Shown here: in pieces, positions 24,360 to 62,753 of the stretch
Layout: every line of letters begins with the position of its first letter
Position numbering within the stretch: the stretch's first letter is position 1
Source of the DNA: Cyclonatronum proteinivorum
GTDB lineage: Bacteria > Bacteroidota > Rhodothermia > Balneolales > Cyclonatronaceae
DNA: 64,000 bases
Direction: 5' to 3'
Assembly: GCF_003353065.1 (NCBI RefSeq)
Contig: NZ_CP027806.1
Coordinates: 1-64,000 of the forward strand
Made by a program: the position numbers and the translations under genes
The notes under the pieces: generated by a model
Databases searched by the model: none
Seen by the model: the letters and a program-made list of their open reading frames with translations, nothing else
Told to the model about the DNA's origin: nothing

Positions 24360-24449
24360 TTTTTTTTGGGGGAAACTCCGTGAGCATCACGGGCAGCGTT
24401 GCCGGCTCATGGCATCCCAAATCGGTCTCATGGCTCCTTGCTTTTTTTG
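24360..24449 (+). repeat. Dispersed ~90-bp repeat, copy B
   Basis: A well preserved copy: TTTTTTTTGGGGGAAACTCC at the left, GAGCATCACGG core, GGCATCCCAAATCGG, then CCTTGCTTTTTTT. It faces copy C in inverted orientation across 268 bp (24450-24717) that hold no gene. Confidence 0.8.
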
Positions 24450-24717
24450 ATGCGCGGCTAATCGTCGTTTTAGTCTCTAAATCGGGTCACACGACCAACT
24501 CATTGGGGCGAACCGTTGTGGTCGTCTTTTGAAGCCCCGAACCGGGCGCGGTCCAATGACCATCATGCCATCATCCGGAGAACTGACCTGGCGTTGACAT
24601 CCCGGGCTGTGGTATGTCGCCGTTTCAAAGTTGTGTATCGGCAAATGGCTTAAATCTTGCCAGAAGAAGGAACTTGATGTATGGCAACATTGGGCACTTT
24701 ATTTGGAAGAGTGTTCC

Positions 24718-24806
24718 AAAAAAAAGCAAGGGGCTTTGAGACCGACCTGGGATGCCGGCAACCAGCAACGCTGACCGTGATGCTCTCGGGATTTTCCCCA
24801 AAAAAA
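24718..24806 (-). repeat. Dispersed ~90-bp repeat, copy C (inverted relative to B)
   Basis: Read on the minus strand it has the same order as copy B: a TTGGGGAAAATCCC-type left end, GAGCATCACGG, GGCATCCCAGGTCGG and CCTTGCTTTTTTTT. It ends 27 bp from the cupin stop codon. Confidence 0.8.
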
Positions 24807-57923: not shown

Positions 57924-58063
57924 TAATTAAACTGGTTTGATTAAACAAATTATTTCACAATGCAATCTACAAAAATAATATCAAGTTCGATCTCTTGCTT
58001 CTGATTAGTCTCCTTGAATGGTTTATAACTACTTATTGAGCGACTAACAATATACTTCCCCAA

Positions 58064-58189
58064 GTCACATAAGTAAAGAATTATTTACTTATGCGACGCA
58101 CGGGTACGTATTAAGTACCTAAAAAGGCACTTAATGACTTGCACGAATTGAGCTCTCCCGGAGTCGTATAAGGAAATACTTATACGACT
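58064..58189. repeat. Array of three hairpins upstream of the methylase operon
   Basis: Three hairpins in 126 bp: CATAAGTAAA/TTTACTTATG within a 14-bp arm pair with one mismatch (58064-58077, 58084-58097); TTAAGTACCT/AGGCACTTAA (58111-58120, 58125-58134; one mismatch); and the perfect AGTCGTATAAG/CTTATACGACT (58162-58172, 58179-58189). The arms share a loose ATAAG core. They could be regulator sites or a small structured RNA. Confidence 0.55.
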
Positions 58190-58308
58190 TCAGTCATCTT
58201 AATAAAGCCCCACACAAAAAAAGCAAGGAGCCATGCGATCGATTTGGGATGCCTCAAGCTACCCCGAAACCCAGGTACTGTGTCAAAAGTCAAGTAATTT
58301 TTTTCCTT

Positions 58309-59415
58309 TTAATCTTCAAAAAATGCCATTTCTAGCTCCGGTATGGTAGTATCAACACCGGTATCGCCCTTGGGCGATACCGCGCTGGCGCTCAGGCCGG
58401 CCGGCCTGAGCGCCAGCGCGGCATCAAAGGCCTCGTTTTTCTTCCACAAATGGTACATCAGGCACAACAACTTCTTCTGCAAGGCCACATTGGCCTTCAT
58501 TTTTATCCCGTGCCGGCTGACTAACCGGTCATAATAGTTGTAATAGGGCTGCCGCTTGTGCGACAAAATATTGCCCACCGGCATATACATCGCTGCCCTG
58601 ATGCGCGCATTGCCCTGTTTCGACATTTTTCTTTTGCCCTTGTGTTTACCTGACTCCTTAACCACTATATCGTAACCCGCATAGCTGATCAGCTGGCTTC
58701 TTGACGTAAAGTATTCAAAGCCCAGCGTCTCTGCCAGCACCGTGGAGATTGTAATCAAACCTATCGACGGAATCGACTTCAGCTTATCCACCTTTTCTTC
58801 GATCTCCGGATCCGAATCCAGATGCCTGGTGATCAGCTTTTCAAGCTTGGTGATCTGTTTATCCAAGGCAGCGATGGTTTGCTGGACAATCTTGCGCGTA
58901 TCTTTGATAGCGTAAGCGCTGTAATTGAGAGCGTGAAGCTGGTTTTTGAGCTGGGTCCGCTGTTCTACCAACGCGCCACGGGTACGCGTGAGCTGACGCA
59001 GCTCGCTCCAATAGGGTTTAATGCCCCGCCATAGCTGCAGCTTCTTGCGCGCACCCATCAGGGCTAGCCCGCGGGCATCAATACGGTCGGTTTTGTTCTT
59101 GAATCCCTCAGACTCATTGAATCTACGCGCCTGACTGGGTAAAACCACGCTTAATGCCCATTCGGGGTGGTTATCAAACAGGTGCAGGGCAACCCGCTCG
59201 TAATACACACCGGTGGCTTCCATGGTGATGCGCACCGGTGCAGGCTGTTTGGACTCCCATTTGGTGACCCAGCTGACAAACTTGGGCAGCTCTGCCTGGG
59301 TGTTGTTAAACTTTCTGGAGGAGCGTACACGCTCGGTCTGTTCAACAGGGTTATACTCGAGGATGCAGGCCTTGAAGTCGTCTTTTGAGATATCTATGCC
59401 AATGGAATAAAACAT
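58309..59415 (-). CDS. IS110-family transposase (DEDD-type, bridge-RNA recombinase family)
   Basis: 368 residues. The RuvC-like N-terminal domain has D in GIDISKDDF, E in TMEATGVYYE and the DxxD of KTDRIDARGLA. The C-terminal Tnp domain has KSIPSIGLITISTVLAE, with a Ser-rich motif (VKESGKHKGKRKMSKQGNARIR) as the serine recombination site. The last 40 residues carry a low-complexity insert encoded by two palindromes. The protein looks intact. Confidence 0.93.
   Translation of the reverse strand: MFYSIGIDISKDDFKACILEYNPVEQTERVRSSRKFNNTQAELPKFVSWVTKWESKQPAPVRITMEATGVYYERVALHLFDNHPEWALSVVLPSQARRFNESEGFKNKTDRIDARGLALMGARKKLQLWRGIKPYWSELRQLTRTRGALVEQRTQLKNQLHALNYSAYAIKDTRKIVQQTIAALDKQITKLEKLITRHLDSDPEIEEKVDKLKSIPSIGLITISTVLAETLGFEYFTSRSQLISYAGYDIVVKESGKHKGKRKMSKQGNARIRAAMYMPVGNILSHKRQPYYNYYDRLVSRHGIKMKANVALQKKLLCLMYHLWKKNEAFDAALALRPAGLSASAVSPKGDTGVDTTIPELEMAFFED
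58360..58421. repeat. Two abutting palindromes inside the transposase C-terminus
   Basis: GGTATCGCCC/GGGCGATACC arms (58360-58369, 58372-58381) overlap by two bases with a perfect 42-bp GC-rich palindrome (58380-58421, half-site starting CCGCGCTGGCGCTCAGG). Both are translated in-frame, giving the low-complexity stretch ALALRPAGLSASAVSPKG. They look like an inserted hairpin unit or a transcription end. Confidence 0.8.
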
Positions 59416-59696
59416 GACTAATCAATAGTTTAGTGGTGTGTTATTTGCATCCGAAGCAGGATCCTGTCGCATGAATTTCACTCATGAATGGTAGCTTTAG
59501 AAACGGGTCTAAGCTCTAGGTACTGTTGTCTTTCAACGCCAGGATACAAGTCTGGTTATGCCTGGCGTGGTTCATCCGGTTAAACCGGTGATTGTGATGC
59601 TCCGAGGGTGCCAGACTTGCTCCTATTTCGGTTGTTTGGTTTCTAATCTAACACTTGCCCGATTAGACGCCAATTTGAATCAAAATTAACATATGA
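59416..59696 (-). ncRNA. Candidate bridge RNA region in the IS110 upstream end
   Basis: The 281-bp non-coding end is where IS110-group elements encode their bridge RNA, in the direction of the transposase. A perfect 9-bp stem (CAAGTCTGG, 59547-59555, with CCAGACTTG, 59611-59619) encloses a 55-nt loop with a small tip hairpin (CCGGT/ACCGG). In the loop the RNA reads GAGCATCAC (59602-59594), identical to the target half next to the IS (59705-59697). An alternative stem (59537-59543 with 59561-59567) is mutually exclusive with part of this fold. Exact RNA ends and donor guides are not determined. Confidence 0.55.
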
Positions 59697-59846
59697 GTGA
59701 TGCTCTCGGAGTTTCACCCAAATAAAAAGAAGGCGGAACATGCACGGGCGCCGGAGATTTAAAGCACATGGCAGCCTGATTTTCCGTAATCTTGCCTGTG
59801 TTTGGTATTTTTGCCTTTATTTCTCACTCCTAACTTTTGTTTCTTG

Positions 59847-62753
59847 ATGGTTCTTCGAGCGGTTTTGTGGTTATTGTTTGGGTTGTTTGGTTGTGCGGTA
59901 CTGCCGGCGGTTTTTAGGGCCGGGGGGGCGTCTGCGCAGGTGTATGAGAACGTGCACCGGCCGAAGCCGGATTTGCGGCAGTTGGATACGCCGCGGTTTC
60001 GCGTCATTTTCCCGGCCGGGGAGGAGTCGGCGGCCTTCCGGACCGCGCGGATTCTGGAGGATCAGTACCCCATCATCAAATCACTTGTTGGGGGGGAGCT
60101 GCGGCGGTTTCCGGTGGTGCTGAATGCGCACAACGACCTCTCGAACGGCTACGTGACGCCCCTGCATTTCCGCACCGAAATCGAGATTCCGGCCATCAAG
60201 GGGCCCGCGCTGAATCCGCGCACCGGCGGCTGGATCGAGAATGTGGCGCCGCACGAGCTGGTGCATGCCCTGCATTTTTCGAACATCCCGGATAACAGCA
60301 TCCCCCGTTTAGTTTACACGTTCTGGCCCGATATGGGGCGGGCGATGCACGGGGCCGCGCCTTTTGGCATGATTGAGGGCATCGCGGTTTTCCATGAGAG
60401 CAATGTGGTGTACGGCAGCGGCGGGCGCGGCAACTACAGCCTGTTCCGCGATCAAACCCGCGCCATGCTCGCCGGCGATGCGCCCTGGTCGCTGGCGCAG
60501 CACCTGAATCCGGCGTTCTATAGCTTCCCCGGCAACCGGCACTACACGGCGGGCTTCGAGTTCATCAACTGGCTGCAGTACACCTACGGCATGGAGACGA
60601 CGCGGCAGAGCATCGAGTATTTTGTGCGCTATCCTTTCTTTGGCTACGGGGCCGCGCTGCGCCATGCAACCGGCAGCCGAACGGGCGCGCTCTACCGCGC
60701 GTATCTGTCGGAAATCCGCGCAGCGCTCGACCCCGTCCCGGAGTCCGTTACGGCAACCGCGGCCATCACCCTGCCCAAAACCGCAGAAGACGCGCACATC
60801 GGGCGCGCGGTCTGGCTCGATAACGCGCGCATTCTGTTCGCGCAGGGCACGCAGTACAACAGCCGCCCCGGTTTTTATGTCGCGGAGGCCTCCGGCGGCA
60901 CGCCCCGGCTGCTGCTCGAAACCCGGCAGGTCGGCGACTTCCGGTTCAGCCTCACGCCCGACCGCCGGCACCTGCTCTACAGCCGCTACCACAGCCATCC
61001 GTGGTTCGAAAACACGCATATTATGGATGTGTACCATTTCGAAACGGACACGCGCCGGCTGCAGCGGCTCACGGAGGGTGCCCGACTCCACGCACCCGCG
61101 TTTGCGCCGGGTTCTTCCGGCGGGTTTTCGGGGGATGTTTTTCCGGGTTTTACCGCGCTTCAGACCGATTCGGAAACGTCGCGGCTGGTCCGTGTTTCCG
61201 AGGGGGGAGCCGTAACGGAACTGGTGAGGCTGAAGCCCGACACCTGGGTGCAGGCCGAACCTTCGCCCGCTGAGGCCGGACGCTGGGCCGTGATTGCCAA
61301 CCGGAACGGGATTCAGGCGCTCTGGCTCGTGGAGGGCGACGACTTCGGCAGCGTGACCGGGCGCAACCCGGATGTCGGCTTCCGCAACGGGGTCGTGCTC
61401 GATGCGGCCTGGGCGGCAGACGGAGAGTCGGTGCTGCTCAGCGGCTGGATGCGCGGCACGGAGTCGGCGCAGGTGTACCGCTTCTTCCCCGCCGAAAACG
61501 AGCTGGTGCAGCTCACCAACGAACCCTTCGGTGCGACCTCTCCGGATTTACGGCCCGACGGCGGGGCGTTGCTCTACATCGCGCAGGAAGGGCAGAGCCG
61601 GGTCATCCGCGTACTTGCGGCCGAACATTTCGGCACCCGCAGCTTTCAGCCCTTCGATTTTCAGCCCGAGCTGCAGGATCGCTTCGCTGCTACGCGCCTC
61701 TCCGACTACCGCGAAGCCGACCTCGAAAACTGGACGCTTGGTGCGTACCGCACAGGCTTCGACTGGCTGCGTCCGCGGGGCGTCGTGCCGGTACTCGAAC
61801 TATCGGAGCGCAGCCGCGAATCCCGTTTCGGCGTGATGATGTCGGGCGGGGATGTGCTGCGTCAGCATTCCTGGCAGGCCGAGCTTACCATCAGCGACCG
61901 CCGTCTCTGGGCCGAGATGTTCTACCGCAACACAACGTTTTACCCCGGCTGGCAGATGGAAGCCTACTACCGCCCGCGCTTCACAAATGCGGGCCTGTTT
62001 ACCGAGCGCGGGGGCGAAGTTTCCCTGCCCTTTTTTGGCCGCATCGAAGACCGCTCCCGAAACAGTTTCTGGCAGTTCAGGCCCGGTATTGCCGCGCGGG
62101 AATTTCGCTACACCGACGACCTCTTTATCAGACCCGGACAGCCTGGCTTCGACGGCTGGTTCACGGATGTCTCCCTCAAAGGCTTTGCCGCCCTGTACTG
62201 GCGCTGGCAGCAGAACATCCGCGACATTATGCCCAACACCGGCACCGTGCTGTTTGTGCAGGGGGAGCAGTTCGTGTATTCCGACCGCGATGAAGGCGTG
62301 CAGGGGATGCGTTTCGGCGTGAATCAGTACCTGAGTCCGTGGCTCAGCCGCAATCACGGGCTGATGCTCGGTGCCGAAGGCCTCACCCAAACCCGCACGC
62401 TGCTCTACGGCACCTCCGGCCTGGTCTATGACGGCTTCGAAACCAACATCCTCGCCGGTGCCCGCAACGCTGCCGTACTCCGCGCCCGCTACGCCCTGCC
62501 CCTGCGCTACGTAGATGACGGCTTCATCAGCGTGCCCTTCTTCCTCGACCGCGTGTACCTCGCCCTGCAGGCCAACTACGTGCTCGACCTGAACGCCATC
62601 GACGGCGCCCCGCTCACGACCGCAGGCCGCGCCGTGTACGGCATCGAGCTCCGGACGAGCTTCCGCCTCTACAACCTCCCCCTCGATATCGGTCTCGGCC
62701 TTGGCTGGGAACCTACCCGCGGCAAGGTGCAGGTATTCGGAAATACGCGCTAA
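59847..62753 (+). CDS. Secreted gluzincin-like peptidase, beta-propeller and barrel fusion
   Basis: 968 residues from the ATG at 59847, with a signal peptide ending near ASAQ. The zinc site is HELVH (136-140) with a candidate third ligand E177 (MIEGIAVF). Then comes a TolB-like propeller region (about 315-600, repeated D..RHLLYSR/DGESVLLSG blades). From about 640 to the end the residues alternate like an outer-membrane barrel. It resembles the M1 enzyme at 21.2 kb in plan but not in detail. The GC-rich sequence contrasts with the neighbouring AT-rich Fic gene. Confidence 0.78.
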   Translation: MVLRAVLWLLFGLFGCAVLPAVFRAGGASAQVYENVHRPKPDLRQLDTPRFRVIFPAGEESAAFRTARILEDQYPIIKSLVGGELRRFPVVLNAHNDLSNGYVTPLHFRTEIEIPAIKGPALNPRTGGWIENVAPHELVHALHFSNIPDNSIPRLVYTFWPDMGRAMHGAAPFGMIEGIAVFHESNVVYGSGGRGNYSLFRDQTRAMLAGDAPWSLAQHLNPAFYSFPGNRHYTAGFEFINWLQYTYGMETTRQSIEYFVRYPFFGYGAALRHATGSRTGALYRAYLSEIRAALDPVPESVTATAAITLPKTAEDAHIGRAVWLDNARILFAQGTQYNSRPGFYVAEASGGTPRLLLETRQVGDFRFSLTPDRRHLLYSRYHSHPWFENTHIMDVYHFETDTRRLQRLTEGARLHAPAFAPGSSGGFSGDVFPGFTALQTDSETSRLVRVSEGGAVTELVRLKPDTWVQAEPSPAEAGRWAVIANRNGIQALWLVEGDDFGSVTGRNPDVGFRNGVVLDAAWAADGESVLLSGWMRGTESAQVYRFFPAENELVQLTNEPFGATSPDLRPDGGALLYIAQEGQSRVIRVLAAEHFGTRSFQPFDFQPELQDRFAATRLSDYREADLENWTLGAYRTGFDWLRPRGVVPVLELSERSRESRFGVMMSGGDVLRQHSWQAELTISDRRLWAEMFYRNTTFYPGWQMEAYYRPRFTNAGLFTERGGEVSLPFFGRIEDRSRNSFWQFRPGIAAREFRYTDDLFIRPGQPGFDGWFTDVSLKGFAALYWRWQQNIRDIMPNTGTVLFVQGEQFVYSDRDEGVQGMRFGVNQYLSPWLSRNHGLMLGAEGLTQTRTLLYGTSGLVYDGFETNILAGARNAAVLRARYALPLRYVDDGFISVPFFLDRVYLALQANYVLDLNAIDGAPLTTAGRAVYGIELRTSFRLYNLPLDIGLGLGWEPTRGKVQVFGNTR

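Follow-up and report, generated by a model that had tools for sequence, protein, structure and literature searches.

A putative bridge-RNA-guided IS110 element at one point of a REP-like repeat subtype in Cyclonatronum proteinivorum

Bridge RNAs have been published for IS621 (PMC11208160, PMC11208158), and seekRNAs with natural reprogramming are described for IS1111/IS110 elements such as ISEc11/ISXne4 (PMC11187229). For ISPpu9, ISPpu10, ISPa11 and ISRm19, all copies were found in an intergenic repeat (7/7, 7/7, 6/6 and 4/4, respectively; PMC1525189). The element analysed here resembles IS621 in its IS110-group DEDD/serine recombinase, in the guide RNA region of its left end, in its REP-type target, in its CT core and in the two predicted loops with two guides each. 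In contrast to IS621, its protein is distant (phmmer 110 bits), target and guides are different, the host belongs to another phylum and the RNA is predicted from sequence; moreover, the present target is an 87-nt repeat that is not described in the literature searched. As with ISEc11/ISXne4, related elements differ in their RNA target matches and correspondingly in their targets, but the present change of target leads from one host-specific dispersed repeat to another, across different genera within a single order. The location of all genome copies in an intergenic repeat is shared with ISPpu9, ISPpu10, ISPa11 and ISRm19, whereas host, repeat and element are others, and here the predicted guides explain which repeat subtype is used. 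The type of mechanism is already known, since bridge RNAs, REP-targeting IS110 elements and natural retargeting have been published. The new part is the present element together with its repeat and the change from one host-specific repeat to another, none of which was found in the openly accessible literature searched. The locus is best read as a bridge-RNA-guided IS110 element, recently active, which would land at one point of a REP-like repeat subtype (probability about 0.93). The observations behind this reading are the junctions, the copies, the complementarity and covariation of guides and targets, and the empty sites.

The window, that is, the whole stretch of DNA analysed, comprises the first 64 kb of a single-contig genome of 4,294,247 bp. 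Matches occur in order-mates that include Rhodohalobacter halophilus and Gracilimonas mengyeensis (L218 and G065 have identical flanks), which suggests a place for the host in the Balneolales. A previous sequence-only reading had placed an IS110 element within a split repeat, and both the transposase ORF and the split repeat were found at that place. The element covers 58275..59695 on the minus strand, between its two CT cores (left end, 59696..59697; right end, 58273..58274), with the left end at the high coordinate. This extent is given by identical junctions in seven genomic copies and by the joined flanks, which form a gap-free alignment with natural repeat copies. The gene for the 368 aa transposase/recombinase was located at 58309..59415 (minus strand). 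The ORF matched NF033542 with 208 bits, above the cut-off, and both the DEDD RuvC-like domain (PF01548) and the Tnp domain (PF02371) exceeded their curated cut-offs. The protein is related to the solved proteins IS621 and ISCro4; the DEDD residues D8, E66, D110 and D113 and the pair S255-G256, including the catalytic serine S255, align with D11, E60, D102, D105 and S241-G242 of IS621. The non-coding left end, which carries the guides, measures 280 nt (59695 down to 59416), and the right end, from core to stop codon, 34 nt. A long guide-bearing left end and a short right end place the element in the IS110 group and not in IS1111. No Rfam family matched the element at the curated threshold, and a single-sequence scan of named genomes gave no close relative. 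Weak Rfam miRNA matches were rejected, as they correspond to a GC-rich, near-perfect palindrome of 25 bp that lies towards the 3' end of the transposase gene (58376-58425). In copy L002 a 17-nt expansion at this palindrome breaks the frame.

The core of the predicted bridge RNA, a target-binding followed by a donor-binding domain, was assigned to 59463..59624 (minus strand) by folding and by a consensus fold. In the minus-strand fold of the left end, a long stem (AGGAGCAAGTCTGG/CCAGACTTGTATCCT) surrounds the target loop and a second domain follows. The fold was moderately better than those of shuffled sequences (z = -1.96). A consensus fold computed from six related ends retains both domains, and 13 of its 35 pairs have one compensated change or more. 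A 9-bp stem (CAAGTCTGG/CCAGACTTG, 59611-59619 / 59547-59555) noted in the sequence-only reading is present and forms the inner part of the longer predicted stem. The identity between loop and flank noted there is likewise real: GAGCATCAC lies on the minus strand in the non-coding end (59594-59602) and again in the flank (59697-59705). Seven occurrences of GAGCATCAC were counted in the window against 0.4 expected, an excess explained by its belonging to the repeat.

The non-coding left end contains readable counterparts of all four IS621-type guides, in the expected order and on the minus strand. The putative left target guide, GAGCATCAC (59594..59602), lies on the 5' side of the target loop and is identical to the left target plus the first core base in 7/7 copies. 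On the 3' side, the putative right target guide GCCAG (59562..59566) would pair with the core and right target CTGGC. The second domain bears the putative left donor guide ACAGTACCT (59518..59526), which equals the right end of the element and is kept in relatives, and the putative right donor guide ATGAG (59481..59485), which would pair with CTCAT at the left end and belongs to a motif, ATTYATGAG, invariant in six related ends. The guides of the predicted donor loop are complementary to both element ends, as in a bridge RNA; they were read by eye, and the element ends hardly vary. Of the guide-like match proposed earlier, the left target guide was borne out, and the right target guide and both donor guides, equally readable, had been missed. 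At the core, the left guide of the window element has CA in place of CU: position 59593, like the same position in L060, L064 and L094, has an A and not a U opposite the second core base. This A is found in half of the related elements, despite their CT target core.

The target repeat is about 87 nt long and consists of end A (TTTTTTTGGGGGAAACTCCGWGARCATCAC), a variable centre and end B (CCCAAATC...CCTTGCTTTTTT). Repeat alignments assigned end A with the left target GAGCATCA to 59698..59731, and the right target GGG with the variable centre and end B to 58215..58272 (both minus strand). The repeat was found in at least 110 places of the genome; repeat copy numbers are lower bounds, with 40 candidates scored per search. 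In the common subtypes, which include most copies, the conserved end is followed by CACGGTC; a minority of copies has CACTGG instead and is similar to the occupied sites. A pattern with fixed centre for the targeted subtype was discarded, its sole match being an unrelated site. The repeat is REP-like in being short, dispersed and present in many copies, and in having a palindrome, the CCGTGAACATCACGG hairpin, which is confined to the common subtype. Three of five Y1_Tnp (RAYT-like) genes have a repeat copy within about 1.2 kb (L175, L182 and L185; chance about 0.02). The repeat family is also carried by a sister species (G005), in which no Y1_Tnp match was found. Upstream of the G005 orthologue of the window gene 59802-62753 the repeat is empty, and this empty repeat and the window copy have the unusual GGGTGAAAC in common. 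The earlier rejoining of the halves at 58272|59697 loses one base. When one CT core is kept (58274|59698), the natural length is restored: GAGCATCAC and CATCCCAAATC are then 22 nt apart in the window, as they are in the empty copy L134. A site joined in this way aligns with natural repeat copies without gaps across 87 nt. Two inverted copies of the targeted family, 270 nt apart, were observed at 24361-24806, and G005 seemingly also has inverted end A pairs, about 100-250 nt apart. Adjoining the element is another dispersed repeat, about 170 nt long (approximately 58016-58203); at least eight copies were found in the genome, and relatives occur in G005.

The genome holds six full copies of the element and one split by another insertion. 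Every copy has the left-end junction GAGCATCA-CT-CATATGTTAA and the right-end junction ACAGTAC-CT, after which the right target reads GGC in 5/7 copies, GGG in the window copy and AGC in L006. The proposal that the element uses the repeat family as its target agrees with the whole set: 7/7 copies lie at one point of this one dispersed repeat, after GAGCATCA-CT and hence after GAGCATCAC, and none at unrelated sequence. As the repeat accounts for well below 1% of the genome, such a distribution would arise by chance with a probability of about 1e-16 or less.

The three repeat copies of the window that the sequence-only reading had considered usable (its copies B, C and D) read GAGCATCACGG. They have no CT core and are therefore not predicted to be good sites; GAGCATCAC alone is insufficient. 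The copies at 24382, 24785 and 42428 have GG after GAGCATCAC in place of TGG. GG at the last two positions was found in 6 of 44 empty GAGCATCAC[G/T]G places, compared with 6 of 7 occupied sites (Fisher P 3e-4), which argues that the right guide restricts insertion to a minority of repeat copies; the core probably does so too. The right targets of two of the seven copies have a one-base mismatch to the guide. The perfect 13-mer GAGCATCACTGGC was found at one empty place (1640300) and, after rejoining, at five occupied ones, so that five of the six sites are filled.

With nearly all good sites filled, the element might use the proposed mechanism and yet be inactive by now. The occupation of the perfect 13-mer sites would fit this, as would the copy with a stop following the 17-nt expansion (L002) and the copy split by another insertion. 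It is nevertheless rather unlikely, as the copies are about 98-99% identical to each other, in four of them the reading frame is still full-length, and the copies compared do not differ in their target loop. In any case, inactivity would leave the mechanism unchanged.

The guided-insertion reading was further examined with eight related elements of the same order, which have a common left end, CT|CATATGTT, and right end, ACAGTACCT, and different targets. Own and foreign targets were compared by the longest guide match with its end at the core, over all 40,320 permutations. For the right target, the commonest one, CTGGC, was taken in the genome studied, and that of G070 was taken from other copies in that genome. 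Because a position-free test was noisy (left guide P 0.005), only the target loop was searched. Own targets gave a sum of 49 with the left guide (permutation mean 25.1, P 5e-5); with the right guide their sum was 52 (permutation mean 29.8, P 1.5e-4). These P values are indicative, as the elements are related, two have a partly common target and the positions were picked after inspection. The right guide match of G124 was poor. In homologous ends the loop varies together with the flanks; its failure to do so, like other copies at unrelated sequences, was an outcome that the sequence-only reading had named as refuting. The guides of the putative target loop are complementary to both sides of the target, as expected for a bridge RNA. 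In G091, all three copies of a 50%-identical element lie at one point of a host-specific 141-bp repeat, CAACT-CT-GACAG, which the element's predicted guides CAACTCT and CTGTCAG match. More than 20 copies of that repeat are empty, several of them 98-99% identical to the joined site. The target in G105 is likewise within a locally repeated sequence.

REP-like repeats were formerly thought to be recognised by the transposase protein (PMC1525189), and the CCGTGAACATCACGG palindrome of the common subtype would offer such a signal, with the guide-like matches being coincidental. This is very improbable, since in eight elements changes of target are accompanied by changes of guide on both sides, insertions avoid the common palindromic CACGGTC subtype, and a relative whose protein is 50% identical has an unrelated repeat as its target. 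Spread of the copies through homologous recombination, or through repeat segments being duplicated, is scarcely credible, for although a mosaic block of differences indicates that element copies have recombined with each other, the DNA beyond the repeat differs in every copy, which points to separate insertions, and the homology on each side of the repeat is only about 30-55 bp. The seven copies (L001-L007) fall into two haplotypes across one block of the transposase gene, which suggests recombination between element copies.

Under the preferred, guided-insertion reading, the left non-coding end would encode a bridge RNA with a target loop (GAGCATCAC, GCCAG) and a donor loop (ACAGTACCT, ATGAG). 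The DEDD/serine recombinase would excise the element as a circle with the junction ACAGTAC-CT-CATATG, and the circle would insert at the CT core of GAGCATCA-CT-GGC. As this sequence is found in a minority subtype of the REP-like repeat, each insertion would land at the same repeat point. RNA production, binding by the recombinase, RNA-DNA pairing and circle formation are proposed by analogy with IS621.

The locus appears to add an IS110 bridge system with good support that is distant from those studied by experiment. Its guides, targets and empty sites can be read from the sequence, and it offers natural one-base target variants within one genome. The near-saturated perfect sites, together with the different repeat of a relative, make a natural test case for target change by a guide RNA, and the enzyme is a possible further recombinase for programmable DNA insertion. 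The guide is a poor match for CACGGTC, the sequence found in most repeat copies. It is conceivable, if doubtful, that the predicted bridge RNAs of Balneolales retarget repeatedly onto the dispersed repeat of each host and that the repeat escapes through substitutions in core and right target, which would amount to co-evolution. Three more distant IS110 relatives (L062, L063 and L064) have right targets CTTTTTT, matched by the loop sequence AAAAAAG; in L062 and L063 the apparent insertion is at the T-tract of a terminator-like hairpin.
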